Positions 30,772-59,781 of a stretch of 64,000 nt of DNA are shown here, piece after piece. The stretch lies in assembly GCF_029714365.1 (NCBI RefSeq), contig NZ_CP121660.1, positions 868,001 through 932,000 on the forward strand. The letters run 5' to 3'. Made by a program: the position numbers and the translations under genes. This DNA is from Sinorhizobium terangae. Lineage in GTDB: Bacteria; Pseudomonadota; Alphaproteobacteria; Rhizobiales; Rhizobiaceae. The notes beneath the pieces were generated by a model that searched no databases, was not told the DNA's origin, and saw only the letters and a list, made by a program, of their open reading frames with translations. Position 1 is the first letter of the stretch. Every line of letters begins with the position of its first letter.

Positions 30772-31788
30772 TCAATGCGGGGAAAGCCCGAACAGCGCCT
30801 GAGCATTGCGGAAGCAGATCTTTTCGAGATCCTCCTTGGGCAGGTCGAGGCTGTTCAGGATTCTCAGCGTGTCGCGGATATAGCCCGGGCCCTTTTCCGG
30901 ATCGAATGGCGAGTCGGACGCAAAGAGGATGCGGTCGCTGCCGTAGAATTCGAGACCGCAGAGCGTCGCCGCGCGCGAGCCGAATACTGCGGTGTCGGCA
31001 TAGAAATCCTTGAAATAGTCGAGCGGGCGCTTCTTCAGCCGCTTGAGCACGAGCGACAGGTCCTCGTCCGAGGTCCGCTTGCCGAGCTGGTCCCAGCCGG
31101 GACCGACACGCCCTTCGAAATAGGGGACCATTGCCCCCATGTGATGGGCGAGAACCTTGAGAGCCGGAAGCCGGTCCATGAAGCCGGAAAAGACGAGGCG
31201 GGCCATGGCAGCGCTGGTCTCGTAGGGCCAGCCGAAGGTCCACCAGATCTCGTATTTCGATTTGTCCTCCGTCGCATAGTCCGGCATGGACGAGGTCCGG
31301 GACGGGTGGAGCAGCACAGGCTTGCCGTGGCGGGCAGCGGCTTCGAAGATCGGAAAAAAGCGCTCCTCGTCGAGCGGCGCGCCGTTGACGTTGGTGTGGA
31401 TCTGCAGGCCGTTCGCGCCGAGTTCGGTGAAGGCGCGCTCGGCTTCCCTGACGGCCGCTTCGGGAGCGTTCATCGGGAGTGCGGCGACGAAGCCGGCGAA
31501 CCGCTCCGGGTGCTTCTCGACGAGTTCCGCCAGGCCGTCATTGCCGAGCTTGGCAAACTCGGTTGCCAGTTCCGGACCGCCCATGGCTTCGAGCGGCGGC
31601 ATGCCGAGCGAAAGGATCTGCGTATAGTCCCTGAACTCGTCCATGACGCGGAAGCGAGCCTCCAGGTCGTAGATACAGGGGATGCCCTGCATCCTGCGGC
31701 CGATGTCCTTGCCGGCCCCGTCGAGCTGTTGGATCCTTTGCCACAGCGCTTTCGGGAAAAAGTGATTGAACGCATCGATGTAGTGCAT
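30772..31788 (-). CDS. Amidohydrolase family protein (ACMSD-type decarboxylase/hydrolase)
   Basis: A 338-residue member of the amidohydrolase 2 family (PF04909). The usual HxH metal motif near the N terminus is altered (FNHFFP, residues 7-12). VLLHPSRTS, LAHHMGAMVPYFEGR and FASDSPFDPEKG are visible in order and give further metal-binding His and Asp. The family includes gamma-resorcylate, 5-carboxyvanillate and ACMS decarboxylases and the LigI and LigJ hydrolases. It is the third gene of an operon with a decarboxylase-like protein and a class II aldolase. A non-oxidative decarboxylase or hydrolase of an aromatic-acid intermediate is the best guess; the exact substrate is not readable. Confidence 0.82.
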   Translation of the reverse strand: MHYIDAFNHFFPKALWQRIQQLDGAGKDIGRRMQGIPCIYDLEARFRVMDEFRDYTQILSLGMPPLEAMGGPELATEFAKLGNDGLAELVEKHPERFAGFVAALPMNAPEAAVREAERAFTELGANGLQIHTNVNGAPLDEERFFPIFEAAARHGKPVLLHPSRTSSMPDYATEDKSKYEIWWTFGWPYETSAAMARLVFSGFMDRLPALKVLAHHMGAMVPYFEGRVGPGWDQLGKRTSDEDLSLVLKRLKKRPLDYFKDFYADTAVFGSRAATLCGLEFYGSDRILFASDSPFDPEKGPGYIRDTLRILNSLDLPKEDLEKICFRNAQALFGLSPH

Positions 31789-31828: not shown

Positions 31829-32521
31829 TCAGCCGCGCTTCAGGCGCCGGACGAGATAGGCGAAAGTGGCCTTGAACATTTCTTCGCGGAACATGTGCCG
31901 GCGCTTCGCCTTGATATCCTCCGGCTTGCCGAGCGCCTTGGCGCCGCCCGCCGCCTCGACCCAAAGCTGCATCATGCAGGCGGTTTCGAGCGAAAGCGCT
32001 AGGTAGATCGCCTGTTCGATGCTGGCGGCGGCGGTGACGATGCCGTGGTTCTGGAGCAGCATGGCGCCGTGGCCGCCGAGTGTCGCGGCAACCGCGCGGC
32101 CGCGTTCGGCCGTGGTGATCAGCTCGGTCGTCTCGGAAAAGACGGGCAGCCCTTCCGAGAAGATCGACCCGGCATGGCCGATCGCCTGCAATGGCTTGCC
32201 GAGTGCGGAGAAGCTGACGGCGTAGGGCGCATGCGTGTGGACCACGGCATTGATGTCGGACCGCGCCTTCAGCACCTCCGAATGGATGTAGACCTCGTTG
32301 TGGCGGCCGAGATCACCGGCGATCTTCTCGCCGTCGAGGCCGACGGTGATGAGGTTGTCGAGCGTGATTTCCTCAAGGCCGATCTTCGAGGCCTTCATGT
32401 AGAAGCGATCCGGCGCATCCGGCACGCGCACGGAGATATGGCCGCGCGTCCAGTCGCCCTGTCCGGCCTGTTCGAGGATCTTGCCGGCCTCGACCATTCT
32501 CTGTTTCACGTCCTCATGCAT
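31829..32521 (-). CDS. Class II aldolase/adducin family protein
   Basis: A 230-residue class II aldolase/adducin protein. The zinc-binding motif (EVYIHSEVLKARSDINAVVHTHAP, about residues 73-96) and the distal His in LLQNHGIVTAA are visible. Members cleave or decarboxylate hydroxyacids (fuculose-1-phosphate aldolase, HMG-type aldolases, 3,4-dihydroxyphthalate 2-decarboxylase). The last is attractive because the neighbour at 32607 is decarboxylase-like and a Rieske oxygenase is nearby. Start ATG 32521. It lies 40 bases upstream of the amidohydrolase in transcription order. Confidence 0.83.
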   Translation of the reverse strand: MHEDVKQRMVEAGKILEQAGQGDWTRGHISVRVPDAPDRFYMKASKIGLEEITLDNLITVGLDGEKIAGDLGRHNEVYIHSEVLKARSDINAVVHTHAPYAVSFSALGKPLQAIGHAGSIFSEGLPVFSETTELITTAERGRAVAATLGGHGAMLLQNHGIVTAAASIEQAIYLALSLETACMMQLWVEAAGGAKALGKPEDIKAKRRHMFREEMFKATFAYLVRRLKRG

Positions 32522-32606
32522 CGTCTTTTGCTCCGATGGCTCATTGCTCAGGAAAGGATTACCGCTCGGGAGGGCTGCTCCGCCCGGGTCTTGCAGGTCG
32601 CAGGCG

Positions 32607-33596
32607 CTACACACGGTGCTTGTCCCCCCGCTTGCGACCCTGAGACACGTCGAGGAAAAGCTCGGAGAGCGGCACCTTGCGATCGATCAGGCCCTGTTCG
32701 TGGGCATAGCCGACAACGGTTTCGAGCGTCTTGCGGTTCTGGCCGTCGAGCCCGTAGGCCCACGGATCGTCGCCGAGAATTTCCTGCTGCTCCTCCCAGG
32801 CTTCGCGGTACCAGGCGAGCGGCACGATGCGCGGGTTTTCCATTCGCCGCATGGCGATGCGTTTCGCCTCGTTGAACGCCTGATATAGATTGATCGGCAC
32901 CCACGGATGGCGCTCGACAATCTCGGGCCGAATGCCGAGAACATGCATGATGGGGAAAATGCCGGTCCGCTTGTAATAGGCGATCTCCTCCCGCTTGTAG
33001 TCGGGGAAGAGCCGGCCGACGCGGGGATCGCGCCTAACGATGGGCTCGATCAGGTCGGGATGGAGGAGCGCGTCGATCTCGCCGTCGAGCAGCATCTGTT
33101 CGACCGACTTGTCGTCGGGCAGGCGGTGAAGCCGGAGCCCTTCCGGCGGCATGAAATCGACATCCTCGTCGAGTTCGGCATACCAATCGATCGATTTGTG
33201 CGGGACGCCATACTCGCTTTCGAGAACTCCGCGCAGCCAGAGCGTCGCGGTGACGAGATAGCTCTTCACGCCGACCTTGCGGCCGATCAGATCCTTCGGT
33301 TCGCGGATTCCGCTTCGGGTGTTGGTGAAGATGAAGCCGTGTCGGAAGCGGCGATGCAGGAAGACCGGGATTGCCGCGAAGGGCAGACCCCGTGTCTTCG
33401 CGGCGATGTAGGACGACAGCGACACCTCGGCAACGTCGAATTCGCCGTTCCTCAGAAAACGCCAGTGACGCGTCGTCGAATCCATCTCGGTCAGGATCGT
33501 CAGTTCGATCCCGTCCGGCCGTACGTCTCCCTCTTTCAGTGCCCGCACGATCTCGTAATCGCCGCAGGCGAGCGTCAGCTCGATCTTCTTCGTCAT
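32607..33596 (-). CDS. 4,5-Dihydroxyphthalate decarboxylase-like / NMT1-fold protein, paralogue A
   Basis: A 329-residue protein of the family named after 4,5-dihydroxyphthalate decarboxylase (Pht5), whose fold resembles periplasmic binding proteins. Markers are FDVAEVSLSSYIAA (residues 53-66), GIREPKDLIGRKVGV (about 96) and YYKRTGIFPIMH (about 206). No signal peptide, so cytoplasmic. It is the first gene of the operon with the class II aldolase and the amidohydrolase, divergent from the MhpA-like hydroxylase. Two paralogues occur at 45940 and 53710. Decarboxylation of a hydroxylated phthalate is the family annotation; it is not proven here. Confidence 0.8.
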   Translation of the reverse strand: MTKKIELTLACGDYEIVRALKEGDVRPDGIELTILTEMDSTTRHWRFLRNGEFDVAEVSLSSYIAAKTRGLPFAAIPVFLHRRFRHGFIFTNTRSGIREPKDLIGRKVGVKSYLVTATLWLRGVLESEYGVPHKSIDWYAELDEDVDFMPPEGLRLHRLPDDKSVEQMLLDGEIDALLHPDLIEPIVRRDPRVGRLFPDYKREEIAYYKRTGIFPIMHVLGIRPEIVERHPWVPINLYQAFNEAKRIAMRRMENPRIVPLAWYREAWEEQQEILGDDPWAYGLDGQNRKTLETVVGYAHEQGLIDRKVPLSELFLDVSQGRKRGDKHRV

Positions 33597-33849: not shown

Positions 33850-35463
33850 ATGCGCGAAACGGATGTCCTTATTGTCGGTGCCGGACCTGTCGGGCTGACG
33901 CTTGCGATCGATCTCGGCCAAAGGGGCGTGCGCTGCACACTGATCGAGAAGAAGGCGGCGCCGGAGTTCCTGCCTAAGATGGAGCGCTGCAATGCGCGAA
34001 CAATGGAGATATTCCGGCGCATGGGGCTTTCCGAGCGGATCAGGGCGGCCGGCCTGGACGCGTCGATCCCGATGGACGTCTATGTCGTACTTGCGATGAA
34101 CGAGCCGCCGCTCTTGCGGTTGCCTTATCCGTCGGTTGCCGAGTCCCTGGCGGAGATCGCGCGGAGCACAGATGCCTCGCAGCCGCTCGAAGCCTATCAA
34201 CTCATTTCGCAATATACGCTGGAGCCGCTGCTGAAATCGGTCGCCGAGAGCCTGCCGAGCGTCACCGTGCGTTATGGCTGCGAATTCCTGTCGCTCGAAC
34301 AGGACGGAGGCGGCGTGACTGCCCGGACCGCGGATGCGACGGGTGCGATCGAGCATTTCCGCGCCAAGTACCTGGTCGGTTGCGACGGCGGCGGGAGCCC
34401 CGTACGCAAGCAGCTCGGCATCAAACTGCGCGGCGAGGGGAACCTTCTGCATCTGCGCCAGGCGCTCTATTACAGCGAAACGCTTTATGACCGCATTCCG
34501 ATCGGGGAAGGCCCCGGGCGCGGGCGGCACTATCATGTCGCCGACGGGCAGGCGACGTTCCTTATCATGCAGGATTCGACCAAACACTGGACGCTGCATG
34601 CCGTCGTCGAACGTGACGAGGATATGGCCGAGCAGTTCGAAAAGGCCGTCGGCACGCCGGTCGACTATACGATGCTCTATGTCGGGCAATGGAAGCAGAA
34701 CCTGCTTCTGGCGGATCACTACGGCGCCGGACGGGTCTTCCTCGCGGGAGACGCGGCACACCTCGTGATACCGACCGGGGGCCTTGGCATGAACACCGGC
34801 GTCGGTGACGCCGTCGATCTCGGCTGGAAGCTTGCGGCGGTGCTGCAGGGCTGGGGCGGACCCAACCTGTTGCGCTCCTACGAGATCGAACGACGGCAGG
34901 TGGGTGATCGGAATGTCGGCGCCTCGCGTTATGCCTCGCTCGGCCGACGCAAGTGGCGCTCTGAGTACCGGCCGGACATCCGCGACGCGACGCCGGCGGG
35001 CCTGGCGACACGCGACAATCTCGCGCGTGTCGCAGACGTCGAGCAGCGCAAGACCAACGAGATGATCGGCGCCGAGCTCGGTTATCGTTATGTCGGCTCT
35101 CCTGTCATCACCGATGAGCCCGGAGGACCGGAACACCTCTTCCGCGAGTACCATCCGACCACCTGGCCCGGCGCCCGGCTGCCGCATCTCTGGCTCGACA
35201 ACGGCGAGCCGGTGCAGGACCGCATCGGCCAAGGCTATATGTTGCTGAGGCTCGGTGGCACGGGCGCCGACGACGGCGCTCTCGGCAAGGCTTTTCGCGC
35301 TCGTGGCGTGCCGTTCGGGACGATCGATATTGCGGAGCAGAGGGCGCGCGATATCTATGGTTACAATCTCATCCTCGTGCGCCCCGATATGCATGTCGTC
35401 TGGCGTGGGAACCAGGCGCCGGAGGACGCGGCTGCACTGGCGGCCATGGTGACAGGCCACTGA
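33850..35463 (+). CDS. FAD-dependent aromatic hydroxylase, MhpA-like
   Basis: A 537-residue flavoprotein monooxygenase (PF01494). The FAD motif GAGPVGLTLA (residues 11-20) and the second flavin motif GDAAHLVIPTGGLGMNTGVGDAVDLGWKL (near residue 300) are intact. Length and composition resemble MhpA, 3-(3-hydroxyphenyl)propionate hydroxylase, and pentachlorophenol-type hydroxylases. It stands alone on the plus strand, divergent from the decarboxylase-like operon, and is followed by a strong hairpin. It may hydroxylate a decarboxylated phenolic acid. A weak ribosome binding site precedes the ATG at 33850. Confidence 0.87.
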   Translation: MRETDVLIVGAGPVGLTLAIDLGQRGVRCTLIEKKAAPEFLPKMERCNARTMEIFRRMGLSERIRAAGLDASIPMDVYVVLAMNEPPLLRLPYPSVAESLAEIARSTDASQPLEAYQLISQYTLEPLLKSVAESLPSVTVRYGCEFLSLEQDGGGVTARTADATGAIEHFRAKYLVGCDGGGSPVRKQLGIKLRGEGNLLHLRQALYYSETLYDRIPIGEGPGRGRHYHVADGQATFLIMQDSTKHWTLHAVVERDEDMAEQFEKAVGTPVDYTMLYVGQWKQNLLLADHYGAGRVFLAGDAAHLVIPTGGLGMNTGVGDAVDLGWKLAAVLQGWGGPNLLRSYEIERRQVGDRNVGASRYASLGRRKWRSEYRPDIRDATPAGLATRDNLARVADVEQRKTNEMIGAELGYRYVGSPVITDEPGGPEHLFREYHPTTWPGARLPHLWLDNGEPVQDRIGQGYMLLRLGGTGADDGALGKAFRARGVPFGTIDIAEQRARDIYGYNLILVRPDMHVVWRGNQAPEDAAALAAMVTGH

Positions 35464-35527: not shown

Positions 35528-37036
35528 TCAGTCGCGGTCGAAAGCTTCATGGCCGAGACCGAGGCTCGGGAAGACCAGCGACTTGATCACCACCGGTACG
35601 GCGCCGGACGTTTCGAGCATTGCGCCGATGTCGATGAAATCGAACTCGTCGAGCTTGATGCCGTCGATGGAGACGAGTTTCGAGATGCCGGCCTCCAGTT
35701 TGCAGTGCATTCCGACAAGGCCGCCGATATCGCCTTCACCGACGAGGATCAGCGGATGACCGCCTTGAAGGATCGGCGCCAGGCCTTCGACGATGCCCCG
35801 ACAGAAATCGTCGAGGCGCCGATAGCTCGCCGAGCCTTCCCATTCGTAGCAGACGGCCACCGCACTCTCTCCGTCTGTGAGGTCGAGCCGCGCCAGGCTC
35901 TCCCGCACCGCTTCGGCGATGGCGGCCGCATCGATCTCTTCACCGAAGGCGAGCGCCGGCTTGATGACCGGCACGTTGCGCACCGGTAGTATGTCGAGCG
36001 GATCGACGAAGATCGTGCTGCCGCTCACCTGCACCGTATATTGCGAGGCGCCGACGACGGTTGCGCGGATGCCCTGTTGGGGGCGCTCCAGCCGCGGAGA
36101 CCAGTTCGCCAGGCGCTGTCGAAGTTCCACGGCAAGAAGGGGACCGAGGTCGCTGAAATCCTGTTCCGCATCCGCATAGAGGAATTCGGAAACACCGCCC
36201 GAGATCATCACGACGTCGGGCGGGGTACCGGCCGGCAAAGGAGGCAATCGATGGAGGTCAGCGGTTTCCCGCCGCATCTCGCCCCCCTGCATGGCCTCGA
36301 ACAGCACGTCGACCATCGACGCTGCGATGCGTTGAGCATCCTCGGCCGTCAATATGGCGCCGAGGTCGACTGCGACCCCCGCACGACGCGCAAAATAATA
36401 GCCTGCCTCTTCGATCCGCGTGATGCGACGATCGGCGTCGAAGGCGATGACGCGCGCGCCGACATCGATGGCGCTGATATTCCGGATCGCGCCGTTTTCG
36501 CAGAGCGCGAGCTTCGACGTGCCGCCGCCGATATCGACGTTCAGCACCCGCTCGCGTGTGCCGGAACGCGCAACCGCGCCCGCGCCGAAGGCGGCGAGCG
36601 TCGTTTCCAGCCCATCTCCGGCGCTGACGACGACGAACTTTCCGGTCTGGGCGGAGAAGATCTCGCCGATCGCGCGCGCGTTGCGGCGGCGGACCGCGAC
36701 GCCGGTGAGGATGAGAGCACCGGTGTCGATCGCGTCCGGCCTGAGACCGGCTGCCTCGTATTGCTCGGCAATAAACGCGCCGAGTGCCTCCGCATCGATC
36801 TCGTTGTCGCCCGCATAAGGCGTCAGCAAGACCTCGGACTGATGCAGCAGCGTGCGCTCCACCACCATGTAGCGCGTATCGAGCCGCTCGAGCACGATAC
36901 GCGAAAAGGCAAGGTGAGAGGTCGACGAACCAATGTCGATACCGACACTGGTCAGCCGGATCTCGTCTTCGAGTTCCATGCTGCGGCCGACATTCGAAAA
37001 GAATATTCGGCCGCCCTGTTCTTCTTCCTCTGACAT
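35528..37036 (-). CDS. EutA-family reactivating-factor ATPase, copy 1 (no EutBC nearby)
   Basis: A 502-residue protein matching EutA, the ethanolamine ammonia-lyase reactivase of the Hsp70/actin ATPase fold, along its whole length (E. coli EutA is about 467 residues). Phosphate loops are VGIDIGSSTSHLAFSR (near 31) and LNVDIGGGTSKLAL (near 170), the adenosine-type motif is ISGGVSEF (near 276), and the C-terminal motif is VVGASQYTVQVSGSTI. The start ATG 37036 gives an acidic N-terminal leader. It lies 11 bases after the bicupin stop, so the two are one operon. There are no EutB, EutC or other B12-dependent enzyme genes in the window. The natural client may therefore be the bicupin or another aromatic enzyme; this is an inference. 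Confidence 0.88.
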   Translation of the reverse strand: MSEEEEQGGRIFFSNVGRSMELEDEIRLTSVGIDIGSSTSHLAFSRIVLERLDTRYMVVERTLLHQSEVLLTPYAGDNEIDAEALGAFIAEQYEAAGLRPDAIDTGALILTGVAVRRRNARAIGEIFSAQTGKFVVVSAGDGLETTLAAFGAGAVARSGTRERVLNVDIGGGTSKLALCENGAIRNISAIDVGARVIAFDADRRITRIEEAGYYFARRAGVAVDLGAILTAEDAQRIAASMVDVLFEAMQGGEMRRETADLHRLPPLPAGTPPDVVMISGGVSEFLYADAEQDFSDLGPLLAVELRQRLANWSPRLERPQQGIRATVVGASQYTVQVSGSTIFVDPLDILPVRNVPVIKPALAFGEEIDAAAIAEAVRESLARLDLTDGESAVAVCYEWEGSASYRRLDDFCRGIVEGLAPILQGGHPLILVGEGDIGGLVGMHCKLEAGISKLVSIDGIKLDEFDFIDIGAMLETSGAVPVVIKSLVFPSLGLGHEAFDRD

Positions 37037-37047
37037 CACTTCGCCAA

Positions 37048-38286
37048 TCAGACGACCGTCGACATCTTCTTGGTCGTGTCGGCCGGCTTCTCGTACCATT
37101 CCGGCTTCATGCGGATATCCACGCCGTTCCGCTTGAGATGCGCCTCGTATTCGTTGCGGATGAAGGGATCTTCCATCCAGTAGGGGATGGCGGTGCCGCC
37201 CTCATTGACGTCAATCGCCGTATAGTCGGTATGCTTTTCGCCAGGTGCGCCCGGATCGCGGCCGGGGTTGTGCGGGCCGAACCAGGCCATCAGCCGGAAG
37301 GGCTCCTTGGAGACGCTGAAGTGCTGGTGGTACCAGCGGGCGCCGCCGGGTGCCGCCGTCACCATGCCGAACGGGCCGTAGTCGAGGCGACGCACCTTGT
37401 CGGCGTGGCCGTCCTTCCAGGGGTTGACACCGTATTGTTCCGGCCAGGTATAGGTATAGCCTTCGCCCTTCAGGCAGATCAGGATCGCCGCCGAGGTGTG
37501 GGCGTGCGCCTTGGAATAGCGGCCGTTCTCGTGCTGACCGATCCAGTAATAGAAGGTATTGTTGGTCATGAAAGGCTCGACGCGGCGGTAGCCGGGCGAG
37601 CGGCGGTTATCGAGCGGCAGTTCGCAGTTGACGGCGTCCGGCAGGAAGTTCGTCCGCCGCATGGCGAGACCACGCACAGGATCGGGCTCGATCTCTTCGC
37701 GATATTTGTAGAAGTCATCGGCGCCCGAAAAGCGGTCGCGGAAGACGTAAGGGTTGTTGAAGACTGCGTCGACGTTCTGGAGTTGGTTGAGCACGTTCGG
37801 CGCCGTGGTGCCGCCGAGCAGCAGCGCCGGGCTGTTGGTGGCATTGACGATGCGGTGCCAGGCATTCATCGGGATGGAGAACATGGAGCCCTCCTGCCAC
37901 TCGAAGACATGCTTGCGGCCTTCGCCCTCGAGCCAGACCTCGGTGGAGCCGCGTCCTTCGACCACGATGTAGATTTCCTCATACATGTGCTTCTCGGGAT
38001 TGAGCGCGCCGGCGGCGGGAATCTCAACGAGGTGGCAGCCCCATTTGGTTTCAGTGCCGTAGAGTTGGATATAAGTGCCGTTGCCGCCCGTCCGCTTCCA
38101 CGGCTTCAACGGCAGATTCTTCACGCTCGAAACACCGAGATCGCGAAAGACCGGAATGCCTTCCTCTTCCATGAACTGGTCATAGGGCGTCGGCTGCTTC
38201 TTGAATTCGCCGAAGCCAGCCTTCTTGGTGCCGGCGGGCTCGTGCCAATGCGTACCGGTGCCGCCGCCAAGTGGGTCCTGATGCAT
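37048..38286 (-). CDS. Bicupin protein, copy 1 (putative non-haem metal dioxygenase)
   Basis: A 412-residue protein with two cupin domains. The first (about 90-190) has EKHMYEEIYIVVEGRGSTEVW and NAWHRIVN; the second (about 245-345) has KAHAHTSAAILICLKGEGYTYTW and RWYHQHFSVS. His and Glu at these places can bind iron or manganese as in gentisate or homogentisate dioxygenases, but the overall sequence is not one I can assign to a known enzyme. A good ribosome binding site (GAGGAGAC) precedes the ATG at 38286. It is in an operon with the EutA-like gene and downstream of an IclR gene. A second bicupin with the same partner is at 61078. Confidence 0.82.
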   Translation of the reverse strand: MHQDPLGGGTGTHWHEPAGTKKAGFGEFKKQPTPYDQFMEEEGIPVFRDLGVSSVKNLPLKPWKRTGGNGTYIQLYGTETKWGCHLVEIPAAGALNPEKHMYEEIYIVVEGRGSTEVWLEGEGRKHVFEWQEGSMFSIPMNAWHRIVNATNSPALLLGGTTAPNVLNQLQNVDAVFNNPYVFRDRFSGADDFYKYREEIEPDPVRGLAMRRTNFLPDAVNCELPLDNRRSPGYRRVEPFMTNNTFYYWIGQHENGRYSKAHAHTSAAILICLKGEGYTYTWPEQYGVNPWKDGHADKVRRLDYGPFGMVTAAPGGARWYHQHFSVSKEPFRLMAWFGPHNPGRDPGAPGEKHTDYTAIDVNEGGTAIPYWMEDPFIRNEYEAHLKRNGVDIRMKPEWYEKPADTTKKMSTVV

Positions 38287-38493: not shown

Positions 38494-39243
38494 TCAGCTG
38501 CGCGCGACGGTTTTGGAAATGATGCCGGCGCAGAACAAGACCCGCTCGGCGACGTCTTCGATCATTTTCGGGTTGGTGCGGGAGTCCCGGAGAGTCAGGC
38601 TGAGACTGCCGAGAATTTCCGAACGGCTGTCGAAGACGGGCGCCGCCACACCGGTGACCCCGGGGGTCACATCGCCAGTCGTGCTCACCCAGCCTCGCTG
38701 CCGGTGTTCCCTTAGCGCGGCCTTGACTTCCTTCAGTGTCGTGCCAAGGCCGGCAGCGGCGAATTGTTCCGGTACCAGGCCATAGAACTTGCGCAACTGA
38801 TGGTCGGGCAGATAGGCGAGGATTCCGAGCGATGCTGCGCCGTGAAGGAGCGACCGCCTGCGTCCGCGCTCGTAGTTGCTGTGGATCGTATCCGTGCCGC
38901 TTTCCTGGTGGACACAAAGCACGTCGAACCGGTATCGGCGGCAGAGGAGGGCGATGCCGCGAAACTCGCTGGCAAGCTCTTCCATCACCGGCCGCGCCGC
39001 CCGGATGAGCACGTCGCCCGTCCGTATCTTGTAATCGAGCTCGACGATCCGCGGCCCGAGCATGTAGCCGACCGAGGGCAGCGAAGTGAGAAGGCCCGCG
39101 TCCGTTAGCGTTTTCAAATAGCGATAGAGCGTCGAACGGGTATAGCCGAGCCGTTCATGCATCTCATCGAACGTCACGGCGACGGCGTCCTCGCCGCTGT
39201 CGAAAAGATCGAGGATGCCGAGCATCTTCTCATGGCTGTTCAC
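38494..39243 (-). CDS. IclR-family transcriptional regulator
   Basis: A 249-residue IclR regulator with the winged helix-turn-helix at residues 1-60 (MLGILDLFDSG, FDEMHERLGYTRSTLYRYLKTLTDAGLL) and the C-terminal effector domain (ASLGILAYLPDHQLRKF, GVTGVAAPVFDSRSEILGSLSLT). It is 207 bases upstream of the bicupin-EutA-like pair and on the same strand, so it likely controls them. IclR proteins commonly sense aromatic acids. Its own upstream region contains a partial RIME element. Confidence 0.92.
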   Translation of the reverse strand: MNSHEKMLGILDLFDSGEDAVAVTFDEMHERLGYTRSTLYRYLKTLTDAGLLTSLPSVGYMLGPRIVELDYKIRTGDVLIRAARPVMEELASEFRGIALLCRRYRFDVLCVHQESGTDTIHSNYERGRRRSLLHGAASLGILAYLPDHQLRKFYGLVPEQFAAAGLGTTLKEVKAALREHRQRGWVSTTGDVTPGVTGVAAPVFDSRSEILGSLSLTLRDSRTNPKMIEDVAERVLFCAGIISKTVARS

Positions 39244-39557: not shown

Positions 39558-40328
39558 TCAGGCGGCCGCGTTCCACGCTTCGGGGAAGATGCCGTCCCGG
39601 ATGGCGCCGCGTGCGTAATAGCTCCAGAGCTTGCGGATGTGATGCCCACGCCTGAAACCATGGGAGAAGGACTCGATTTCGGCTTCGGTCAGCGGCTTCA
39701 CCTTGCCGATCGCAGCGGCGCGATAGGCGGCCTCGGCGTTCTCGACGAGATGAACCGAATCGATGAAGACGCCGCGCACCGTTTCGGCGGTGACGATCTG
39801 CCCGTGCGCGCGGATCTGCATGGCGTGGTGCGGTCCAAGGGTCGCGACGATGCCCCGTCCCCTTTCGGCATCATCCACATGGGCGGGATCCGGATGAACC
39901 GGGATCCCGCTCTTCCAGCGGATCGCATGGTTCTTGAAGGGCAGCAGCGGGACGTCCTCGACCAGCGTGAAGACGTTGGTCACGTCGTGGTGGAAGTGCG
40001 CGATCGAATTGACGTCCGCCCTTGCGCGATAAATCTCACAATGAAGGAATACCTCGGAAGGCGGTTTGACGCTCGAGGGGCCGGACACGACCTTGCCGTC
40101 AAGGTCGCAGACGAGGAGATCGTCGGGAGACACTTCCGCACGGCTCTTCTCCTGCGGCTGGATCAGGAAGGTCACGCCTCCCGGCAAGCGCGCGCTGACA
40201 TGGCCACTATACTCCAGTATTTTCAGGCTGTTGAGCAAACGTGTGCTCATCGCCACATTGAGCCGCAGGGACGCCTCGGATGGTGCGTCCGCTGCCGCCG
40301 CGCTGTCGCTTTTTCCATGAACCTGCAT
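39558..40328 (-). CDS. Class II aldolase/adducin family protein (second copy)
   Basis: A 256-residue class II aldolase/adducin protein, longer and diverged from the one at 31829. The metal site is VFLHCEIYRARADVNSIAHFHHDVTNVF (about 105-132), in which the first His of the HTH motif is a HFHH variant, and QIRAHGQIVTAE supplies the third His. Start ATG 40328 with ribosome binding site CGGAGGAAC. It lies downstream of the Rieske ferredoxin gene (97-base gap) on the same strand. It may act on a dihydroxylated aromatic acid, as 3,4-dihydroxyphthalate decarboxylases do; substrate unproven. Confidence 0.8.
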   Translation of the reverse strand: MQVHGKSDSAAAADAPSEASLRLNVAMSTRLLNSLKILEYSGHVSARLPGGVTFLIQPQEKSRAEVSPDDLLVCDLDGKVVSGPSSVKPPSEVFLHCEIYRARADVNSIAHFHHDVTNVFTLVEDVPLLPFKNHAIRWKSGIPVHPDPAHVDDAERGRGIVATLGPHHAMQIRAHGQIVTAETVRGVFIDSVHLVENAEAAYRAAAIGKVKPLTEAEIESFSHGFRRGHHIRKLWSYYARGAIRDGIFPEAWNAAA

Positions 40329-40338
40329 GCGTTCCTCC

Positions 40339-40359
40339 GTGAGATTGAATAAATCCCAC
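40339..40359. promoter_or_regulatory. Palindrome upstream of class II aldolase gene
   Basis: GTGAGATT and AATCCCAC form an inverted repeat with one mismatch around GAATA, directly upstream of the aldolase ribosome binding site. The word AATCTCAC also appears at 33676 in another promoter region of the island. Speculative operator. Confidence 0.3.
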
Positions 40360-40425
40360 AATATACGACTTTATCGTTTCCGCAAGCGCGCCAGATCATC
40401 ACTCACCGGCCGCGCCTGAGGCGCG

Positions 40426-40743
40426 TCAGACCTCGATCGTCACGTTCTCGTTCTCGATCACGACCTTGTAGGTCTTGATCGGAATCATGCAGGGCGGCGT
40501 GACCACTTCGCCCGTGCGGATGTCGAACGCGCCGTTGTGGAAGTCGCACTCGATCGTGTGGCCGTCGAGATAGCCTTCGGAAAGCGAACCCGGGCCGTGC
40601 GTGCACAGGTCGTCGGTAACGTAGAACACGCCATTGACGTTGAAGACGGCGAGCGTGAGGTCGCCTTCCTCAACCCGTATCGCGCTGTCCCAGTCGACGT
40701 CACTCGTGGAACACAGCCTGATTCTGGTGCTTGCCTCGGCCAT
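40426..40743 (-). CDS. Rieske [2Fe-2S] ferredoxin of a ring-hydroxylating oxygenase system
   Basis: A 105-residue Rieske ferredoxin with the cluster ligands Cys47-x-His49 (CTHGPGSL) and Cys66-x2-His69 (CDFHNGAF). The size is that of separate oxygenase ferredoxins such as BphF and NdoA. The start ATG 40743 has ribosome binding site GGAGGAGCC. It is divergent from the Rieske oxygenase at 40965 and would carry electrons from the reductase at 43770 to it. The presence of a Rieske ferredoxin plus a plant-ferredoxin-type reductase makes this a three-component system. Confidence 0.92.
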   Translation of the reverse strand: MAEASTRIRLCSTSDVDWDSAIRVEEGDLTLAVFNVNGVFYVTDDLCTHGPGSLSEGYLDGHTIECDFHNGAFDIRTGEVVTPPCMIPIKTYKVVIENENVTIEV

Positions 40744-40823
40744 TCCTGGCTCCTCCTTCGTTGCTTTGCGGGCCCGCTTGACGGGGCGGTCATCAGATTG
40801 TACGTTGCTTAAAAAGAAACAGC

Positions 40824-40840
40824 GTTCCGTATAAAGGAAC
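40824..40840. promoter_or_regulatory. IclR-like box, copy 1
   Basis: GTTCCGTATAAAGGAAC is a 17-base near-palindrome in the divergent promoter of the Rieske ferredoxin and oxygenase genes. Its reverse complement (GTTCCTTTATACGGAAC) differs at one base from the site at 54601. The GTTCC/GGAAC pattern resembles IclR-family operators. Confidence 0.65.
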
Positions 40841-40882
40841 ACGAAGAAAATACCTGATCGGTCGAGAACGTCAACCCGAAAT

Positions 40883-40964: not shown

Positions 40965-42251
40965 ATGCTCAGGAAGGAACAGAACGATCTGCTAACGCAG
41001 ACAGGCCCCGGCACTCCGATGGGCGACATGTTTCGCTGTTATTGGATCCCGGCGCTGCTCGCCGAGGAACTGCCGGACAACGACTGCGCGCCGGTCCGTG
41101 TGAAGCTCCTGAGCGAACGCCTGCTCGCCTTCCGCGACAGCGAAGGCCGCTACGGCCTAATCGACGAATTCTGCGCCCACCGCGGCGTCTCACTGTGGTT
41201 CGGCCGCAATGAGCAGGGCGGCCTGCGCTGCCCTTACCATGGCTGGAAATACGACCACACCGGCCAGTGCGTCGAAGTTCCTTCGGAGCCGAAGGAAAGC
41301 GGTTATTGCGGCAAGATCAAGCTGAAGTCCTATCCGCTGATCAAGATCGGCGACATTCTCTGGACCTATATGGGGCCGGCCGAAAAGCAGCCTCCGCATC
41401 CTGAATGGGAATTCGCGCTCGTTCCCTCGGAACAGACCTTCACGTCGAAGCGCTGGCAGGAGTGCAACTGGCTGCAGGCCATGGAAGGTGGCATCGACTC
41501 CAGCCACGTGTCCTGGCTCCACAGCGGCAATCTCAACAGCGACCCGCTCTTCAAGGGCGCGCGCGGCAACAAGTACAACATGTCCGATGCGAGACCCTTC
41601 TTCGAGGTGACCGACAACGAGGGTGGTCTGTTCATCGGCGCTCGGCGCAATGCCGAAGAAGGCCACTACTACTGGCGCGTCACGCCGTGGGTCATGCCGT
41701 CGTTCACGATGGTGCCGCCGCGCGGCGACCATCCGGTTCACGGGCACTTCTGGATCCCGATCGACGACGAGAACTGCTGGGCCTGGAGCTTCGACTATCA
41801 CCCGGTGCGTGCGCTGACGACGGAGGAGCGCGGGGCGATGAAGGCCGGAAAAGGCATCCACGTCGCCTATGTGCCCGGAACCTACCGGCCGCTCGCCAAC
41901 AAGGACAATGATTATCTCATGGACCGCGAGGCCCAGCGCAAGGGCATCACCTATTCCGGCGTCGAAGGCATCGCCATGCAGGACGCCTCGCTGCAGGAAA
42001 GCATGGGTCCGATCGTCGATCGCAGCAAGGAAAACCTGGTGTCGACCGACAACGGCATCATCATGGCGCGCCATCGTCTGTTGAAGGCCGCCCGCGCCCT
42101 GCGCGACAAGGGCGTTGTTCCCCCTGGCGTCGATCCGGCGCATCACCGCGTCCGCTCGGCGGCGATCGTGCTGCCCGTCGACAAGTCCTATGTCGATGTC
42201 GCCGAAGAGGCGCTGACCGTGATCGAAGGCAAGGCGCCGACCAGCGTTTGA
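40965..42251 (+). CDS. Rieske non-haem iron oxygenase, phthalate 4,5-dioxygenase-like alpha subunit
   Basis: A 428-residue Rieske oxygenase with the cluster motif Cys70-x-His72 (CAHRGVSLWFG) and Cys89-x2-His92 (CPYHGW), and mononuclear iron ligands His181 and His186 with the bridging Asp178 (GGIDSSHVSWLHSG). It resembles the group of phthalate 4,5-dioxygenase oxygenase components (about 430-450 residues, alpha-only trimers). That group usually uses an FMN reductase, but here a Rieske ferredoxin and an NAD(P)H reductase are nearby. Ribosome binding site GGAGGAAG precedes the ATG at 40965. Substrate probably a phthalate or other aromatic acid. Confidence 0.9.
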   Translation: MLRKEQNDLLTQTGPGTPMGDMFRCYWIPALLAEELPDNDCAPVRVKLLSERLLAFRDSEGRYGLIDEFCAHRGVSLWFGRNEQGGLRCPYHGWKYDHTGQCVEVPSEPKESGYCGKIKLKSYPLIKIGDILWTYMGPAEKQPPHPEWEFALVPSEQTFTSKRWQECNWLQAMEGGIDSSHVSWLHSGNLNSDPLFKGARGNKYNMSDARPFFEVTDNEGGLFIGARRNAEEGHYYWRVTPWVMPSFTMVPPRGDHPVHGHFWIPIDDENCWAWSFDYHPVRALTTEERGAMKAGKGIHVAYVPGTYRPLANKDNDYLMDREAQRKGITYSGVEGIAMQDASLQESMGPIVDRSKENLVSTDNGIIMARHRLLKAARALRDKGVVPPGVDPAHHRVRSAAIVLPVDKSYVDVAEEALTVIEGKAPTSV

Positions 42252-42322
42252 GGCTGCAGCCATCATGGTGAGCCCCGGCGCGATGCGCCGGGGATGCTGC
42301 CGCATCAATGAGGAGAAATGTC

Positions 42323-42844
42323 ATGCAACTCGGACTGAGCGAAAGTGCGCGCTTCGCCACTGCGGAGGAAGCCCGTTTCCGTATCGAATACCCGAATTCC
42401 AGCCCACGCAAGTCGCGTGTCATCGCCCTGGATGAGCCGAGTTTGGCGCTGCTCAGCACCCTTGCCGACATGTCGTGGAGCGGGGCGCATTTTTTGCGCT
42501 ACGTGGGTGCAAAGGGCGCAACCGATTCGCTCCACATGCTGCCGGTCGACGCGGTTTTGGAGGACCTTGAAGGCAGGACTGTCAGTCTCGCCGACGAGAT
42601 CGCCGATGCCGATATCATCGTCATGATAACGACGGCCGGCACTGCAGCGGATGCCGCTGAAGTGATCGGCAATGCCTGCTTCGTCCGCAACAAGCTGACA
42701 ACCGGCCTGGTGCGCAACGCCGACAGTGTCTCGGCGGAAGATCTTGCGCGCACGCTGACGACCATGCGTCCTTTCGCGGCAATGCTCGTGATCTCCAACG
42801 GAGACGAATATGTCGGCGAAATGCTGAGCGCGCTCAGGGTTTGA
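42323..42844 (+). CDS. Conserved hypothetical protein in the Rieske oxygenase operon
   Basis: A 173-residue soluble protein that I do not recognise. It has a Rossmann-like middle (ADIIVMITTAGTAADAAEVIGNACFVRNKLTTGLV) with a T-T-A-G-T phosphate-type loop, and no signal peptide or cysteine-rich motif. Start ATG 42323 is preceded by AGGAGA. It lies 71 bases after the oxygenase gene and 83 bases before an IclR gene, all on the plus strand. It could be an accessory factor of the oxygenase or bind a nucleotide; I have no evidence for either. Confidence 0.8.
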   Translation: MQLGLSESARFATAEEARFRIEYPNSSPRKSRVIALDEPSLALLSTLADMSWSGAHFLRYVGAKGATDSLHMLPVDAVLEDLEGRTVSLADEIADADIIVMITTAGTAADAAEVIGNACFVRNKLTTGLVRNADSVSAEDLARTLTTMRPFAAMLVISNGDEYVGEMLSALRV

Positions 42845-42881
42845 GATCAGCAGGGTGGTGATGTGAGACCATGACAACTGT

Positions 42882-42900
42882 GTTATGGACGAGCCGTAAC
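42882..42900. promoter_or_regulatory. Inverted repeat upstream of the second IclR gene
   Basis: GTTATGG and CCGTAAC, one mismatch, around ACGAG, 28 bases before the IclR start at 42928. It may be an autoregulatory site. Confidence 0.4.
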
Positions 42901-42927
42901 TCTCGCGATGAAACGGACAATCACGTC

Positions 42928-43767
42928 ATGAACGCACCCACCAAACCACCCGCGCGCGGAGGAAAAGGCCCCGCCGGCAAGCGCAACCGCCTCTCATCGG
43001 TCACGACGGCGATCCGTCTCCTGAAGGCTTTCTCGGAGGATGAGGCCGAGATCGGCGTCAGTGCGCTGGCGCAAAGGCTGAAGGTCGCAAAGAGCACGGT
43101 CCATCGTCTGGCGGTGACGCTCGTGACCGAGGGCTTGCTCGAGCAGAACCCGCAAACGGAGCGCTATCGGCTTGGGGTCGGGCTCTTCGCTCTCGGTACA
43201 CTTGTCCGCCGGCGCATGGATCTTTCGAACGAGGCGAGGCCCTACCTGTTCGACCTGCGCAAGCTGACGGGCGAAACAATTATTCTGGGCGTCCCCTCGG
43301 ATGGAGAGGTGATGCACGTCTACGATCTGGAAAGCCCGCAGGCCCTGGCGATGAAGTCCGACCTCGGTGCGCGCAAGCCCGCCCATTGCAGCGCCGTCGG
43401 GCGCGCGATCTTCGCCTTTGCGCCGGAGCAGGCGGTCGAGCGCATGCTGGCTGGGCCGCTGCAGCGGCGAACGGCGAAGACAGTTACCGATCCGGTGCGC
43501 CTGAAGGAGATGCTGGCCGAGGTCCGCCAGCGGGGCTTTGCCATCGAAGACGAGGAAAGCGAACCCGGAATCCGGGGCATTGCTGCCCCGGTGCGCGATT
43601 CGACCGGCGCCGTCGTTGGCGCCGTTGGCATCGCAGGTCCATTGCAGCGGCTGTCCCTTGAGGTGCTTGAAGGCTTTTCGCCTGCGCTTCTCGAAGCGGT
43701 CGCCGCCATTTCATCCCGCCTCGGTTACACGGCGGCCTTTCGAGAGAGATACGACCTAGGGAGTTGA
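42928..43767 (+). CDS. IclR-family transcriptional regulator (second)
   Basis: A 279-residue IclR protein with a Lys/Arg-rich N-terminal tail (residues 1-25), the winged helix (LSSVTTAIRLLKAFSEDEAEIGVSALAQRLKVAKSTVHRLAVTL, about 23-65) and effector domain (AHCSAVGRAIFAF, EDEESEPGIRGIAAPVRDSTGAVVGAVGI). The chosen ATG is at 42928; a start at 42871 would add 19 residues. It is followed two bases later by the reductase gene, so it is co-transcribed with the electron-transfer component it may regulate. Candidate target: the GTTCC-type boxes at 40824 and 54601. Confidence 0.92.
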   Translation: MNAPTKPPARGGKGPAGKRNRLSSVTTAIRLLKAFSEDEAEIGVSALAQRLKVAKSTVHRLAVTLVTEGLLEQNPQTERYRLGVGLFALGTLVRRRMDLSNEARPYLFDLRKLTGETIILGVPSDGEVMHVYDLESPQALAMKSDLGARKPAHCSAVGRAIFAFAPEQAVERMLAGPLQRRTAKTVTDPVRLKEMLAEVRQRGFAIEDEESEPGIRGIAAPVRDSTGAVVGAVGIAGPLQRLSLEVLEGFSPALLEAVAAISSRLGYTAAFRERYDLGS

Positions 43768-43769
43768 AC

Positions 43770-44771
43770 ATGCCGGCAATTGCACTCAAGGGAAGCGATG
43801 TCCAATGGACTTGCGGAGATGGCGACACGATCATGCGCTCGGCTTTGCGCGCGGGCCTCGGCTTTCCCTATGAATGCAATGTCGGCTCCTGCGGCAACTG
43901 CCGTTTCGATCTTCTCGAAGGCGAGATCGAGGAACTGCGTCCCGATGCGCCCGGTCTCAGCGATCGCGATCGGGAGCGCGGCCGCCGGCTCGGCTGCCAG
44001 GCTCGCCCGCTGACGGATTGTGTCGTAAAGCTCCGGCTGATGCCGCAGTATGAAAGCCACTTCCCGCCCGTGCGGCAGCAGGCGGAACTGATCGAAGTGC
44101 GCGACATCACGCACGACATCCGCGAGTTTCGCTTCCGGCTGGACAGGCCGGTCCGCTTTCTCGCCGGCCAATATGCCTTGCTCGATCTGCCCGGCGTCAC
44201 GGGTAACCGCGCCTATTCTATGGCCAATACGGACAACGACGCGGGCGAATGGCATTTCCAGATCCGCCGTGTGCCGAACGGGGCCGCGACGGGCAAGCTC
44301 TTCGACGACCTTGCGGTCGGCGATCGCATCGGTGTCGACGGTCCCTACGGAATGGCCTACCTGCGGGCCGAATCGGACCGCGATATCATCTGTCTTGCCG
44401 GCGGTTCCGGTCTTTCGCCGATGATATCGGTTACTCGCGCCGCCGCGGCGACGCCGCTCCTGGCTGGACGGCGGATCGACTTCATCTACGGCGGACGGAC
44501 GGCTCGCGACATCTGCGGCAAGGACATACTGGCCGAACTTCCCGGTTTCGGCTCCAATATCCACTACCATCCCATCGTTTCCAGTGACGACGAGGCCTGG
44601 GATGGCCATTGCGGCTTCGTGCACGAGCTGGCGGCAAAGCTCTTCTCCGATCGCCTTCCCGAATGCGAGGTCTATTTTGCCGGTCCTCCGCTGATGGGTC
44701 AGGCGATCCAGAAGATGCTGATTGACCTCGGCGTTCCGCCGGCCCAGGTTCATTTCGACCAGTTCTACTGA
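43770..44771 (+). CDS. Plant-type [2Fe-2S] ferredoxin-NAD(P)H reductase of an oxygenase system
   Basis: A 333-residue reductase with an N-terminal [2Fe-2S] domain (Cys36, Cys41, Cys44, Cys76; ECNVGSCGNC and GCQARP), then an FAD-binding domain (NRAYSMANTDND) and an NAD domain (CLAGGSGLSPMISVTRAA; EVYFAGPPLMGQA). This matches the BenC/XylZ/CarAd type. It passes electrons from NAD(P)H to the Rieske ferredoxin at 40426. ATG 43770 follows AGGGAG. The gene ends 21 bases before the LysR gene. Confidence 0.92.
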   Translation: MPAIALKGSDVQWTCGDGDTIMRSALRAGLGFPYECNVGSCGNCRFDLLEGEIEELRPDAPGLSDRDRERGRRLGCQARPLTDCVVKLRLMPQYESHFPPVRQQAELIEVRDITHDIREFRFRLDRPVRFLAGQYALLDLPGVTGNRAYSMANTDNDAGEWHFQIRRVPNGAATGKLFDDLAVGDRIGVDGPYGMAYLRAESDRDIICLAGGSGLSPMISVTRAAAATPLLAGRRIDFIYGGRTARDICGKDILAELPGFGSNIHYHPIVSSDDEAWDGHCGFVHELAAKLFSDRLPECEVYFAGPPLMGQAIQKMLIDLGVPPAQVHFDQFY

Positions 44772-44792: not shown

Positions 44793-45758
44793 ATGCTTGG
44801 ACATGCAATGAAGCTCCGCCAGCTTGCCTACTTCGTCAAGGTCGTCGAAGTGGGCAACATTACGCGGGCGGCAGAGCAGCTCAATCTCGCCCAGACCGCG
44901 CTTGGCATCCAGATCCGCAATCTCGAGGACGCCCTGCAGATCCAGTTGCTCGACCGCCATTCGCGCGGCGTGAGCGCAACGCCCGCAGGCATGCTGCTTT
45001 ACGAGCGCTCGATTGAAATTCTGCAACGGCTCGAGGAGACGCGCCGAGACCTGATCGCGCTCGGCGGCGAGCGGGTGCGCATAAGGTTTGGCGCAACGCC
45101 GAGCATTCTCAAGCTGATCGGCACGGAACTGCTCGTCGCCGCCAATGCGCAACTTCCCGGCATCGCGCTCCATGTCGTGGAGGAATTGAGCTTCGTGCTG
45201 GCCGATGCACTCGAGCGCGGCGAACTCGACTATGTGCTTGCTTACGACATAGAGGAAAACCCGGGTATCAGGCGTGTCGCGCTGATGGAGGAGGACCTCC
45301 TTCATGTGTCGGCGGCAAACGGCGGGGAGCAGGGCGGCGATATTTCCTTCCGGCAAGCGGTCGCCGGCGATCTCGCCCTGGTTTCGAACCGCGACATCAT
45401 CTGGCGGCGGGTGCACGAAACGGCCTCGCGCCTCTCCGTCGACGTCAAGATCACCTATCAGGTTCAATCGAACGAGGCGATCAAGGCGCTGGTCCTGCAC
45501 GGCGTTGCGCAAAGCATCATGCCCTATGGGATCGTGGCGGAGGAGATCAAGACGGGCCAGATCATCGGGCGGCGCGTTGACCGGCCCGGTGTCAAGCGGA
45601 CGTTGTTTCTCGCTCATCCGGCCCATAGGGGGGTCGCGGATGAGAAGCCTTTCCTTGCGTTCATCGACAAGATGGTCGACCGGCTGATGGCCGAGGTCGG
45701 GTCTTACGCGCACCCGATCGATCGCCTGGTTCCGATGGAGCAAGCGGATTCTCTTTGA
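44793..45758 (+). CDS. LysR-family regulator, nitrogen assimilation/CbbR-like group
   Basis: A 321-residue LysR regulator; the classic start MKLRQLAYFVKVVEVGNITRAAEQLNLAQTALGIQIRNLE suggests the ATG at 44808, but an ATG at 44793 has a slightly better-placed GAAAGG stretch. The rest is a normal effector domain (ATPSILKLIGTELL, PYGIVAEEIKTGQI). It lies directly after the reductase gene and before the decarboxylase-like gene at 45940, which it may regulate. Both the helix-turn-helix and the effector domain look complete. Confidence 0.92.
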   Translation: MLGHAMKLRQLAYFVKVVEVGNITRAAEQLNLAQTALGIQIRNLEDALQIQLLDRHSRGVSATPAGMLLYERSIEILQRLEETRRDLIALGGERVRIRFGATPSILKLIGTELLVAANAQLPGIALHVVEELSFVLADALERGELDYVLAYDIEENPGIRRVALMEEDLLHVSAANGGEQGGDISFRQAVAGDLALVSNRDIIWRRVHETASRLSVDVKITYQVQSNEAIKALVLHGVAQSIMPYGIVAEEIKTGQIIGRRVDRPGVKRTLFLAHPAHRGVADEKPFLAFIDKMVDRLMAEVGSYAHPIDRLVPMEQADSL

Positions 45759-45939
45759 GCAAGCCAATAGGTTTTATCTTGGACATTTCGGCCCTCGCAT
45801 TCGATGATCGACGCAGATTGGAGATGTGAAAAAGGCGGGACACGGCGGAGGAGCCGTCCAGGATTTTTGCTTGTAAGTCGCGGACTTGCGCTCGGCCAAA
45901 CCAGGCTTTCCTGACCCCGGTAGTGCTAGGGAGACTATT

Positions 45940-46935
45940 CTGACTTCGTCGCTTCGCTTATCGTTCGGTTGTTGGAACTACGACCGGACACGCCCCCTCA
46001 TGGACAGAACGGTCGCACCAGACGGGATCGATCTCGTCTATCTCAACATGCCGGTGGAAGAGACTTTCTTTCGCATGCTGCGCCATCGGGAATTCGACAT
46101 CGCGGAGATGTCGCTTTCCTCCTACGTCATGTCTTGTTTCGCGGAAACGCGTCCGTTCGTGGCGATTCCGGTTTTCCCATCCCGCTATTTCAGGCATTCG
46201 TCGATCTACGTGAACGCCGCTTCGGGCATTCGCGAGCCGAAGGATCTAATCGGCAAACGTGTCGGGACGCCCGAGTACCAGATGACCGCACCGGTCTGGA
46301 TACGCGGCATCCTTTCCGACGAGTATGGCGTCAAGGTCGATGACGTCACCTACTACGCTGGTGGGGAAGAGCAGCCGAACCGGCCGGAAAAGCTCCCGCT
46401 CAACCTGCCGGGCCATATCCGCGTCAACCGCATCGGTCCGACGCAGACGCTTTCGGCCATGTTGCGCGACGGCGAGATCGACGCGCTCTACACAGCCAGG
46501 AAGCCCTCTTCCTATGAGGGGCCGACCGGTCGTGTCCGGCGCCTCTTCGAGAACTTCGTCGAGATCGAGCGGGCTTATTTCAAGCGGACCGGCATCTTTC
46601 CGATCATGCATACGATCGTCATCCGGCGGGAGGTCTACGAGGCGCACCGCTGGATCGCGCAATCGCTCTACAAGGCCTTTGCCGAGGCGCAGGCGCGCGT
46701 CTACCGCGAGCTCGAGGAGACGGCGGCGCTGAAGGTCATGCTGCCTTGGCTGAATGCACATGTCGAGGAGGCGCGTCGGCTTATGGGTGACGATTACTGG
46801 AGCTACGGCTTCAAAGAAAATCGGGAGACGCTTGAGACGTTTCTCCGCTACTCCTACGAGCAGGGGTTGTCGAAGCGGAAGCTTTGCGCGGAGGATATTT
46901 TCGCACCGGAGACGATGGAGAGTTTCGTCATCTAG
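45940..46935 (+). CDS. 4,5-Dihydroxyphthalate decarboxylase-like / NMT1-fold protein, paralogue B
   Basis: A 331-residue protein similar end to end to paralogue A: FDIAEMSLSSYVM, GIREPKDLIGKRVGTP, YFKRTGIFPIMH and SYGFKENRETLE. There is no in-frame ATG near the start: the first Met corresponds to about residue 21. The CTG at 45940 lies seven bases after AGGGA and aligns with Met1 of paralogue A, so a CTG start is proposed; an upstream TTG at 45886 would add 18 residues. It is downstream of the LysR gene, separated by about 180 bases. Role as for paralogue A: probably decarboxylation of a hydroxyphthalate; unproven. Confidence 0.78.
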   Translation: MTSSLRLSFGCWNYDRTRPLMDRTVAPDGIDLVYLNMPVEETFFRMLRHREFDIAEMSLSSYVMSCFAETRPFVAIPVFPSRYFRHSSIYVNAASGIREPKDLIGKRVGTPEYQMTAPVWIRGILSDEYGVKVDDVTYYAGGEEQPNRPEKLPLNLPGHIRVNRIGPTQTLSAMLRDGEIDALYTARKPSSYEGPTGRVRRLFENFVEIERAYFKRTGIFPIMHTIVIRREVYEAHRWIAQSLYKAFAEAQARVYRELEETAALKVMLPWLNAHVEEARRLMGDDYWSYGFKENRETLETFLRYSYEQGLSKRKLCAEDIFAPETMESFVI

Positions 46936-50953: not shown

Positions 50954-50982
50954 CTGCCTGTTCCTCCCTCGTTCGCTACGGC

Positions 50983-53651: not shown

Positions 53652-53709
53652 GGCGGCATCCTTGTGCTGCAATCGCGAGGGCGGACCTCGTCCGTCACTT
53701 CCTCAAGCC

Positions 53710-59743: not shown

Positions 59744-59781
59744 TGCGCGCAATCTCAAGCTTCAACTGGGAGGAAAATACA

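Follow-up and report, generated by a model that had tools for sequence, protein, structure and literature searches.

A bicupin and an EutA-family ATPase as a putative enzyme-plus-activator pair in Sinorhizobium terangae and other Alphaproteobacteria

In the portion of the source available to us, EutA is described as removing damaged cofactor from ethanolamine ammonia-lyase (EutBC) at the expense of ATP (PMC5821096). In the records examined, members of the family are annotated as reactivases of a B12 enzyme. The present analysis concerns two EutA-family genes in a 64-kb stretch of the Sinorhizobium terangae genome G000 (G000:C2:868001-932000, hereafter the window), each of which lies downstream of a gene encoding a bicupin. 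On the bicupin side, the closest described systems are the gentisate and salicylate 1,2-dioxygenases (3bu7, 2phd), which are themselves bicupins, and we know of none that has an EutA-like partner. No paper linking EutA-family proteins with bicupins or with nickel was found among those listed in searches of the open-access literature. Two candidate papers were set aside: the accessible part of a study of riboflavin catabolism contains no EutA (PMC12746152), and the 'EutA' in the accessible part of a paper on arylmalonate decarboxylase is an ectoine enzyme rather than a member of this family (PMC4996985).

The first pair is encoded on the minus strand, where the bicupin (type 1, 412 residues, 37048..38286; identified from the open reading frame, Pfam and the alignment) is followed by the EutA-family ATPase (type 1, 502 residues, 35528..37036, with an ATG start at 37036). 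The type names used here were coined in this analysis. Eleven bases separate the bicupin stop from the EutA-like start and the phosphate loops of the EutA-like proteins, DIGSST and DIGGGT, are intact, both points as the initial annotation had stated for this copy. The same annotation placed a second pair of this kind at 61078-63980. A bicupin and an EutA-like gene are indeed found there on the plus strand, with a spacing of 155 bases rather than 11: the bicupin (type 2, 413 residues, 61078..62319) was assigned by Pfam and by the match of its C-terminal domain to 3bu7, and the ATPase (type 2, 501 residues, 62475..63980, GTG start) by Pfam. The two bicupins are 31-32% identical and the two EutA-like proteins 40%. 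The genome contains two full-length EutA genes, both inside the window; a third match of 27.4 bits was taken as a cross-match to a different protein that shares the fold.

The initial annotation had proposed scoring EutA homologues in other genomes for adjacent cupin genes and for the absence of eutBC. Samples of 240 alphaproteobacterial (class), 297 order and 398 phylum genomes were surveyed. Bicupins were called with the profile of the 70-row alignment A1 at E <= 1e-15 and EutA genes were counted only if full length, partial matches (<=33 bits, the bulk of the 180 class genomes with any match) having been dropped beforehand as cross-matches. Two bicupin queries served to score adjacency, to which a third was added for the family f105 discussed below, so that a remote cupin could have escaped; the gene starts of the sampled genomes are rough. 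In the class sample, full-length EutA occurred in 6/240 genomes (15 genes) and the bicupin in seven, namely all six EutA genomes and G226. The latter is 70% complete; its bicupin runs from base 227 of a contig and an EutA start fragment (26 bits) occupies bases 8-127 on the same strand. With G226 counted as lacking EutA, the co-occurrence gave a Fisher probability of 2.8e-11. Eight genomes of the order sample had EutA, seven being new, and the number of EutA genes was 11. Among the 26 EutA loci of these two samples, 22 adjoin a bicupin, two a UbiD gene (L037, L043), one a fused EutBC (L087, genome G475) and one none of these (L044); contig ends cut L040 and the bicupin-adjoining L048. In the phylum sample EutA occurs in six genomes, G000 and G475 included, and the four EutA genes outside these two all directly adjoin EutB; two haloarchaeal plasmid EutA genes that were examined lie beside EutC and EutB. 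Moreover, 16 of 17 named loci near copy 1 have the bicupin directly upstream, the seventeenth being an EutA fragment without a bicupin. The two genes thus stay adjacent, mostly irrespective of EutBC. If alphaproteobacterial members mostly serve bicupins, as the 22 of 26 loci suggest, many current EutA annotations mislead. Four Rhizobium/Rhizobiales loci show the gene order bicupin2-EutA2-bicupin1-EutA1. At another locus (L042:4287-9431), three tandem bicupin genes precede a single EutA gene.

The partners also diverge together. For 28 EutA-bicupin pairs, five of the 17 named loci included, the distance matrices correlated with r = 0.905, a value reached in none of 9,999 permutations, and the nearest relative agreed between EutA and bicupin in 22 of the 28. 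Partners were also swapped inside single genomes, using the 10 with two or three pairs each, a design chosen to remove shared species ancestry, and the true pairing was the best of 3,072. The pairing is real and general, and the genome co-occurrence and partner-swap tests show it to be more than chance. The possibility was considered that both genes merely travel together on catabolic islands without acting jointly, since many of the loci are such islands and some hold two pairs. Partner-specific co-divergence within genomes and the co-occurrence across genomes are hard to explain in this way, and hitch-hiking is most improbable. Sequence comparison supports the partnership of the EutA-like protein with the bicupin well; its biochemistry we infer.

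The strictness of the pairing, the short distance between the genes at many loci and the co-divergence would be just as compatible with subunits of one enzyme. Two-component enzymes such as hydantoinase/oxoprolinase and acetone carboxylase provide models in which the EutA-like protein would be the ATP-using subunit and not an activator, and copy 2 gives a sub-threshold match to Hydantoinase_A (E = 0.043). However, the match to EutA is full length, bicupins outnumber EutA in several genomes, and the UbiD-type operons described below would demand a second type of enzyme. A two-component enzyme is, on this evidence, unlikely.

Assignment of the ATPases to the EutA family is clear. Pfam EutA (PF06277) matched both over the full length, with E = 4.1e-114 and 382.5 bits for copy 1 and E = 2.8e-106 and 356.7 bits for copy 2, against a curated cut-off of 27 bits. 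The fold is presumably that of the ASKHA ATPases. Compared with EutBC-linked EutA, the window-type proteins belong to the same family throughout, carry the same nucleotide-binding motifs and share 32-36% identity with four EutBC-linked members of the phylum sample, but their genes adjoin a bicupin and not EutBC, and one subtype has histidine-rich ends. Fifty-six positions are fixed in five EutBC-linked EutA proteins and kept in at least 94% of 32 others, the divergent EutA of G475 being omitted from both groups. The NCBI equivalog cut-off for the ethanolamine ammonia-lyase reactivase EutA was not reached (best score 315.6 against 598 bits). In a tree of 38 EutA rows, the EutBC-linked rows formed one side of a branch with support of 83/95, which is below the usual threshold. 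The branch of the G475 EutA was very long and fell outside the bicupin group, with its placement unsure. A search of PDB sequences with EutA 1 alone gave no match at E 0.001, and no relative was found in viral contigs.

The absence of EutB, EutC or any other B12 enzyme from the window had been noted at the outset. No EutB was found in the 64 kb, and Pfam analysis of 50 window frames revealed no B12 enzyme; the remaining frames were not run, and B12 enzymes other than EutB were not searched genome-wide. What that statement did not foresee is a single EutB elsewhere on the same replicon, a fused EutB-EutC of 785 residues (G000:C2:751159-753516; L005:1285-3642). It precedes the window by 114 kb, and its distance to copy 1 is 150 kb and to copy 2 176 kb. 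The protein begins with a twin-arginine-like stretch and has no EutA nearby. A eutBC pair close to the window that uses these proteins had been named as an observation that would count against a bicupin role; this concern was half borne out, inasmuch as the fused gene exists at the distance given, but 9 of the 12 bicupin-EutA genomes have no EutB. In the other three it is found in G000, in G296 (765 kb away) and in G420 (on another contig).

It is conceivable that the EutA-like proteins still serve ethanolamine ammonia-lyase by reactivating the fused EutBC in trans. S. terangae has no other full-length EutA, and the related fused EutBC of G475 has an EutA gene directly upstream. However, apart from the nine EutB-less genomes, EutB (E <= 1e-20) is present in 18/240 class genomes, of which only G000 also has a full-length EutA, and the G475 EutA falls outside the bicupin group. 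EutA-free EutBC is known, in keeping with the 17 EutB genomes without full-length EutA: in the available part of the report, the Acinetobacter enzyme did not need EutA when placed in Salmonella (PMC9426561). Reactivation of EutBC in trans is very improbable as the role of these proteins.

The bicupins were less readily assigned. Pfam Cupin_2 matched the N-terminal half only (copy 1, E = 3.3e-10; copy 2, E = 2e-06). Residues H261, H263, H320, H322, E103 and N148 of bicupin 1 are invariant in alignment A1. Of the metal motif in the C-terminal cupin, the HxH part was found in 29/31 and the HQH part in 31/31 bicupins, both window copies included, with two partial sequences dropped and each window copy counted once, while the N-terminal cupin retains only part of a metal site. 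The C-terminal domain of bicupin 2 weakly resembles gentisate 1,2-dioxygenase 3bu7 (E = 1.2e-5) over a region that spans the two HxH motifs, which align with those of 3bu7, and four more gentisate dioxygenase sequences were matched at E 0.05-0.12. In PDB searches the bicupin profile gave weak matches to auxin-binding protein 1 (7.9e-4) and 3bu7 (0.0015), and whole bicupin 1 gave nothing at E 0.001. Unlike the gentisate/salicylate enzymes, the window bicupins are far below the equivalog cut-off, that of 5-aminosalicylate 1,2-dioxygenase (20.6 and 25.7 against 650 bits), and have a partial N-terminal site. The bicupin is probably the best candidate for ring cleavage in the window, because no other ring-cleavage dioxygenase was found among the 50 frames run through Pfam.

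Taken with the pairing, these features suggest that the EutA-family ATPase activates or reactivates, and possibly metallates, the dioxygenase-like bicupin, each pair being a dedicated module of enzyme plus activator. We consider this somewhat more probable than otherwise. The bicupin would depend on a metal, resemble the gentisate/salicylate dioxygenases in type and have a single intact metal site (HxH ... HQH), in its C-terminal cupin; its pathway would be one that handles carboxylated aromatic acids. As an ATP-driven activator, the EutA-like protein would bind it, and, by analogy with the action of EutA on the B12 cofactor of EutBC, ATP may be used to open the bicupin so that metal is loaded or a spent metal centre exchanged. 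Reactivation or metal loading of the bicupin, as first suggested, remains our best guess. If correct, it would extend an ATP-driven mechanism of repair or metallation to a metalloenzyme without B12, and the workings of EutA-type ATPases would become testable in a system of two proteins. The other client that had been suggested, a neighbouring iron enzyme, is less supported: of the 34 loci or window segments compared, only 7 have a Rieske oxygenase, and nickel/cobalt is the type of the metal genes found repeatedly beside EutA. Reactivation of the Rieske oxygenase as a general role was rejected, many loci being without one.

Several gene neighbours bear on the metal. At the Phyllobacterium zundukense locus, the bicupin and EutA genes are followed in order by a HoxN/HupN/NixA nickel/cobalt transporter gene on the opposite strand and by NikR; NixA and NikR stand beside EutA in 4/4 Phyllobacterium loci, this one and three more. 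Of 17 NicO matches in 12 sampled genomes, four (in G210, G398, G409 and G523) lie within 10 kb of EutA where 0.21 were expected, with a Poisson probability of 7e-5, or 1.3e-3 when G409 and G523 are counted once. With matches above the Pfam cut-off only, 2/12 are near EutA (expected 0.15, P = 0.01). In G409 and G523 the two pairs are separated by CobW-type genes. No nickel/cobalt-type gene stands beside EutA in the window.

Histidine-rich ends were found in relatives of the window ATPases. In type-3 EutA, 120/120 homologues listed had 7-41 histidines (median 25) in a C-terminal tail, and 6-10 histidines occur in the 60 residues preceding the ATPase core; type-1 tails have two histidines at most, and tails with at least six were counted in 120/120 type-3 and 0/120 type-1 proteins, each set comprising the 120 highest-scoring of about 7,000 matches. 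Type-2 EutA has a short HDLxFxH-like start, which in copy 2 is the His/Asp-rich N-terminal HDLDFDHEHD. The window copies lack long histidine tails, copy 1 having no histidine-rich end and copy 2 the short N-terminal motif only.

The nickel NTPases and chaperones HypB, UreG and UreE have histidine-rich ends. Type-3 EutA is likewise an NTPase with such ends, and a nickel transporter and NikR adjoin EutA in some genomes. For nickel-dependent quercetinase, we know of no ATPase partner. As described in the accessible text, that enzyme is a cupin dioxygenase, with nickel as its likely native metal in a 3His/1Glu site (PMC4416304), the site being a difference from the bicupins. For HypB, the insertion of nickel can depend on NTP hydrolysis, according to the available part of the source (PMC7055735), which gives HypB a G3E GTPase fold. 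EutA-family ATPases differ from these chaperones in their ASKHA fold, and the window copies are without long tails. The neighbours and the tails of the relatives, and hardly the window itself, suggest nickel or cobalt as the metal. Zinc may be the metal, other enzymes (aldolases, for example) may be the ones that use it, and that of the bicupin may be iron. Tentatively, EutA-family ATPases outside ethanolamine metabolism could be insertion or repair factors for nickel (or cobalt) in Ni- or Co-dependent bicupin dioxygenases, a maturation based on ASKHA and not on a G3E GTPase, with one sub-branch switched to UbiD-type operons. This wider proposal is possible, but we would sooner expect it to fail than to hold.

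A number of observations speak against the activator model or its extension to nickel. Two of the four near-EutA NicO matches (G398, G409) are under the Pfam cut-off, and 8 of the 12 genomes sampled, G000 among them, have no nickel-type gene near EutA. The C-terminal domain of bicupin 1 alone matched no dioxygenase in the PDB, the only match being glucose-6-phosphate isomerase at E 0.64, and the putative dioxygenase link of this copy is drawn from motifs, from copy 2 and from the weak profile match (E = 0.0015). HxH is lost in two of the 31 bicupins (L038:6688-7914, L046:9477-10709) with the EutA partner kept; a non-metal or changed function is possible for these. Not every bicupin has an EutA of its own, as in G113, with at least seven bicupins and two EutA genes. 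The client may also be broader than the bicupin, the L044 EutA of the class sample having no bicupin, UbiD or EutBC partner. Finally, in the alphaproteobacterial family f105, where EutA occurs in 12/13 genomes, 16 of 28 EutA loci are beside a bicupin, 10 beside an upstream UbiD gene and two beside neither, one of these two being near a contig end (the 28 loci derive from 39 EutA match rows, and three are also in the class sample).

The UbiD-EutA operon is a second context of EutA apart from B12, seen in one family. In most of the f105 UbiD-EutA loci a small monocupin gene lies on the other side of EutA. A NicO-type gene directly follows EutA in UbiD-type operons of eight f105 genomes (G210, G870, G871, G872, G874, G875, G877 and G878); G104 and G869 have UbiD-EutA-monocupin without it, and the G876 locus is cut. 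In the EutA tree, two UbiD-linked rows (100/100) are nested within the type-2 bicupin group (98/96), and a switch of neighbour from bicupin to UbiD is therefore likely. UbiD-EutA operons, most of them followed by a NicO-type gene and a monocupin, were seen at L037, L043, L108, L112, L114, L116, L117, L120, L124, L126, L127 and L129.

The replacement of the bicupin by UbiD in one EutA subclade raises the possibility that the client is another enzyme of the operon (UbiD, the Rieske oxygenase or a 4,5-dihydroxyphthalate decarboxylase-like protein) and that the bicupin is an accessory protein binding metal or substrate. Decarboxylase-like genes recur in 13/34 loci or window segments. However, UbiD adjacency was seen in one family only, and many loci have no Rieske or decarboxylase gene, co-divergence having been computed for the bicupin only. 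A client other than the bicupin is quite unlikely.

Around copy 1, the window has a catabolic character. On the minus strand, an Amidohydrolase_2 family enzyme (30772..31788) and a class II aldolase (31829..32614), both assigned by Pfam, are encoded beside a relative of 4,5-dihydroxyphthalate decarboxylase (32607..33596; PDB 9jp7, E = 3.4e-59), and Pfam identified an FAD-dependent aromatic-ring hydroxylase on the plus strand (33850..35463). Beyond the bicupin, Pfam assigned on the minus strand an IclR-type regulator (38494..39243), a class II aldolase/adducin family enzyme (39558..40361) and a Rieske ferredoxin (40426..40842), and on the plus strand a Rieske oxygenase with a LigXa-type C-terminal domain (40965..42251), a second IclR-type regulator (42871..43767), a Fer2/FAD/NAD reductase presumably belonging to the Rieske system (43764..44771) and a LysR-type regulator (44793..45758). 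Locus comparison revealed a conserved protein of about 178 residues without a Pfam match (42308..42844, plus strand), which is present in 7/34 compared loci or window segments. In each of the seven places where it was found (the window, L050, L055, L056, L080, L082 and L083), its gene immediately follows that of the LigXa-type Rieske oxygenase.

Further along, a second relative of the decarboxylase, without a Pfam match, is encoded on the plus strand (45886..46935) and clusters with the protein at 32607-33596. Pfam matches on the minus strand identified an RraA-like aldolase (50276..50992) and an Amidohydrolase_2 family enzyme (52611..53672). Upstream of copy 2, the plus strand encodes TctA of a tripartite tricarboxylate transporter (56447..58015, Pfam) and, by locus comparison, two tandem proteins of one family (58646..60789), which we take to be the solute-binding TctC. 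Elsewhere in the window, a PrpF-family protein (17931-19019, E = 2.4e-122) was found, which is perhaps a tautomerase or isomerase of a lower pathway for carboxylated aromatics.

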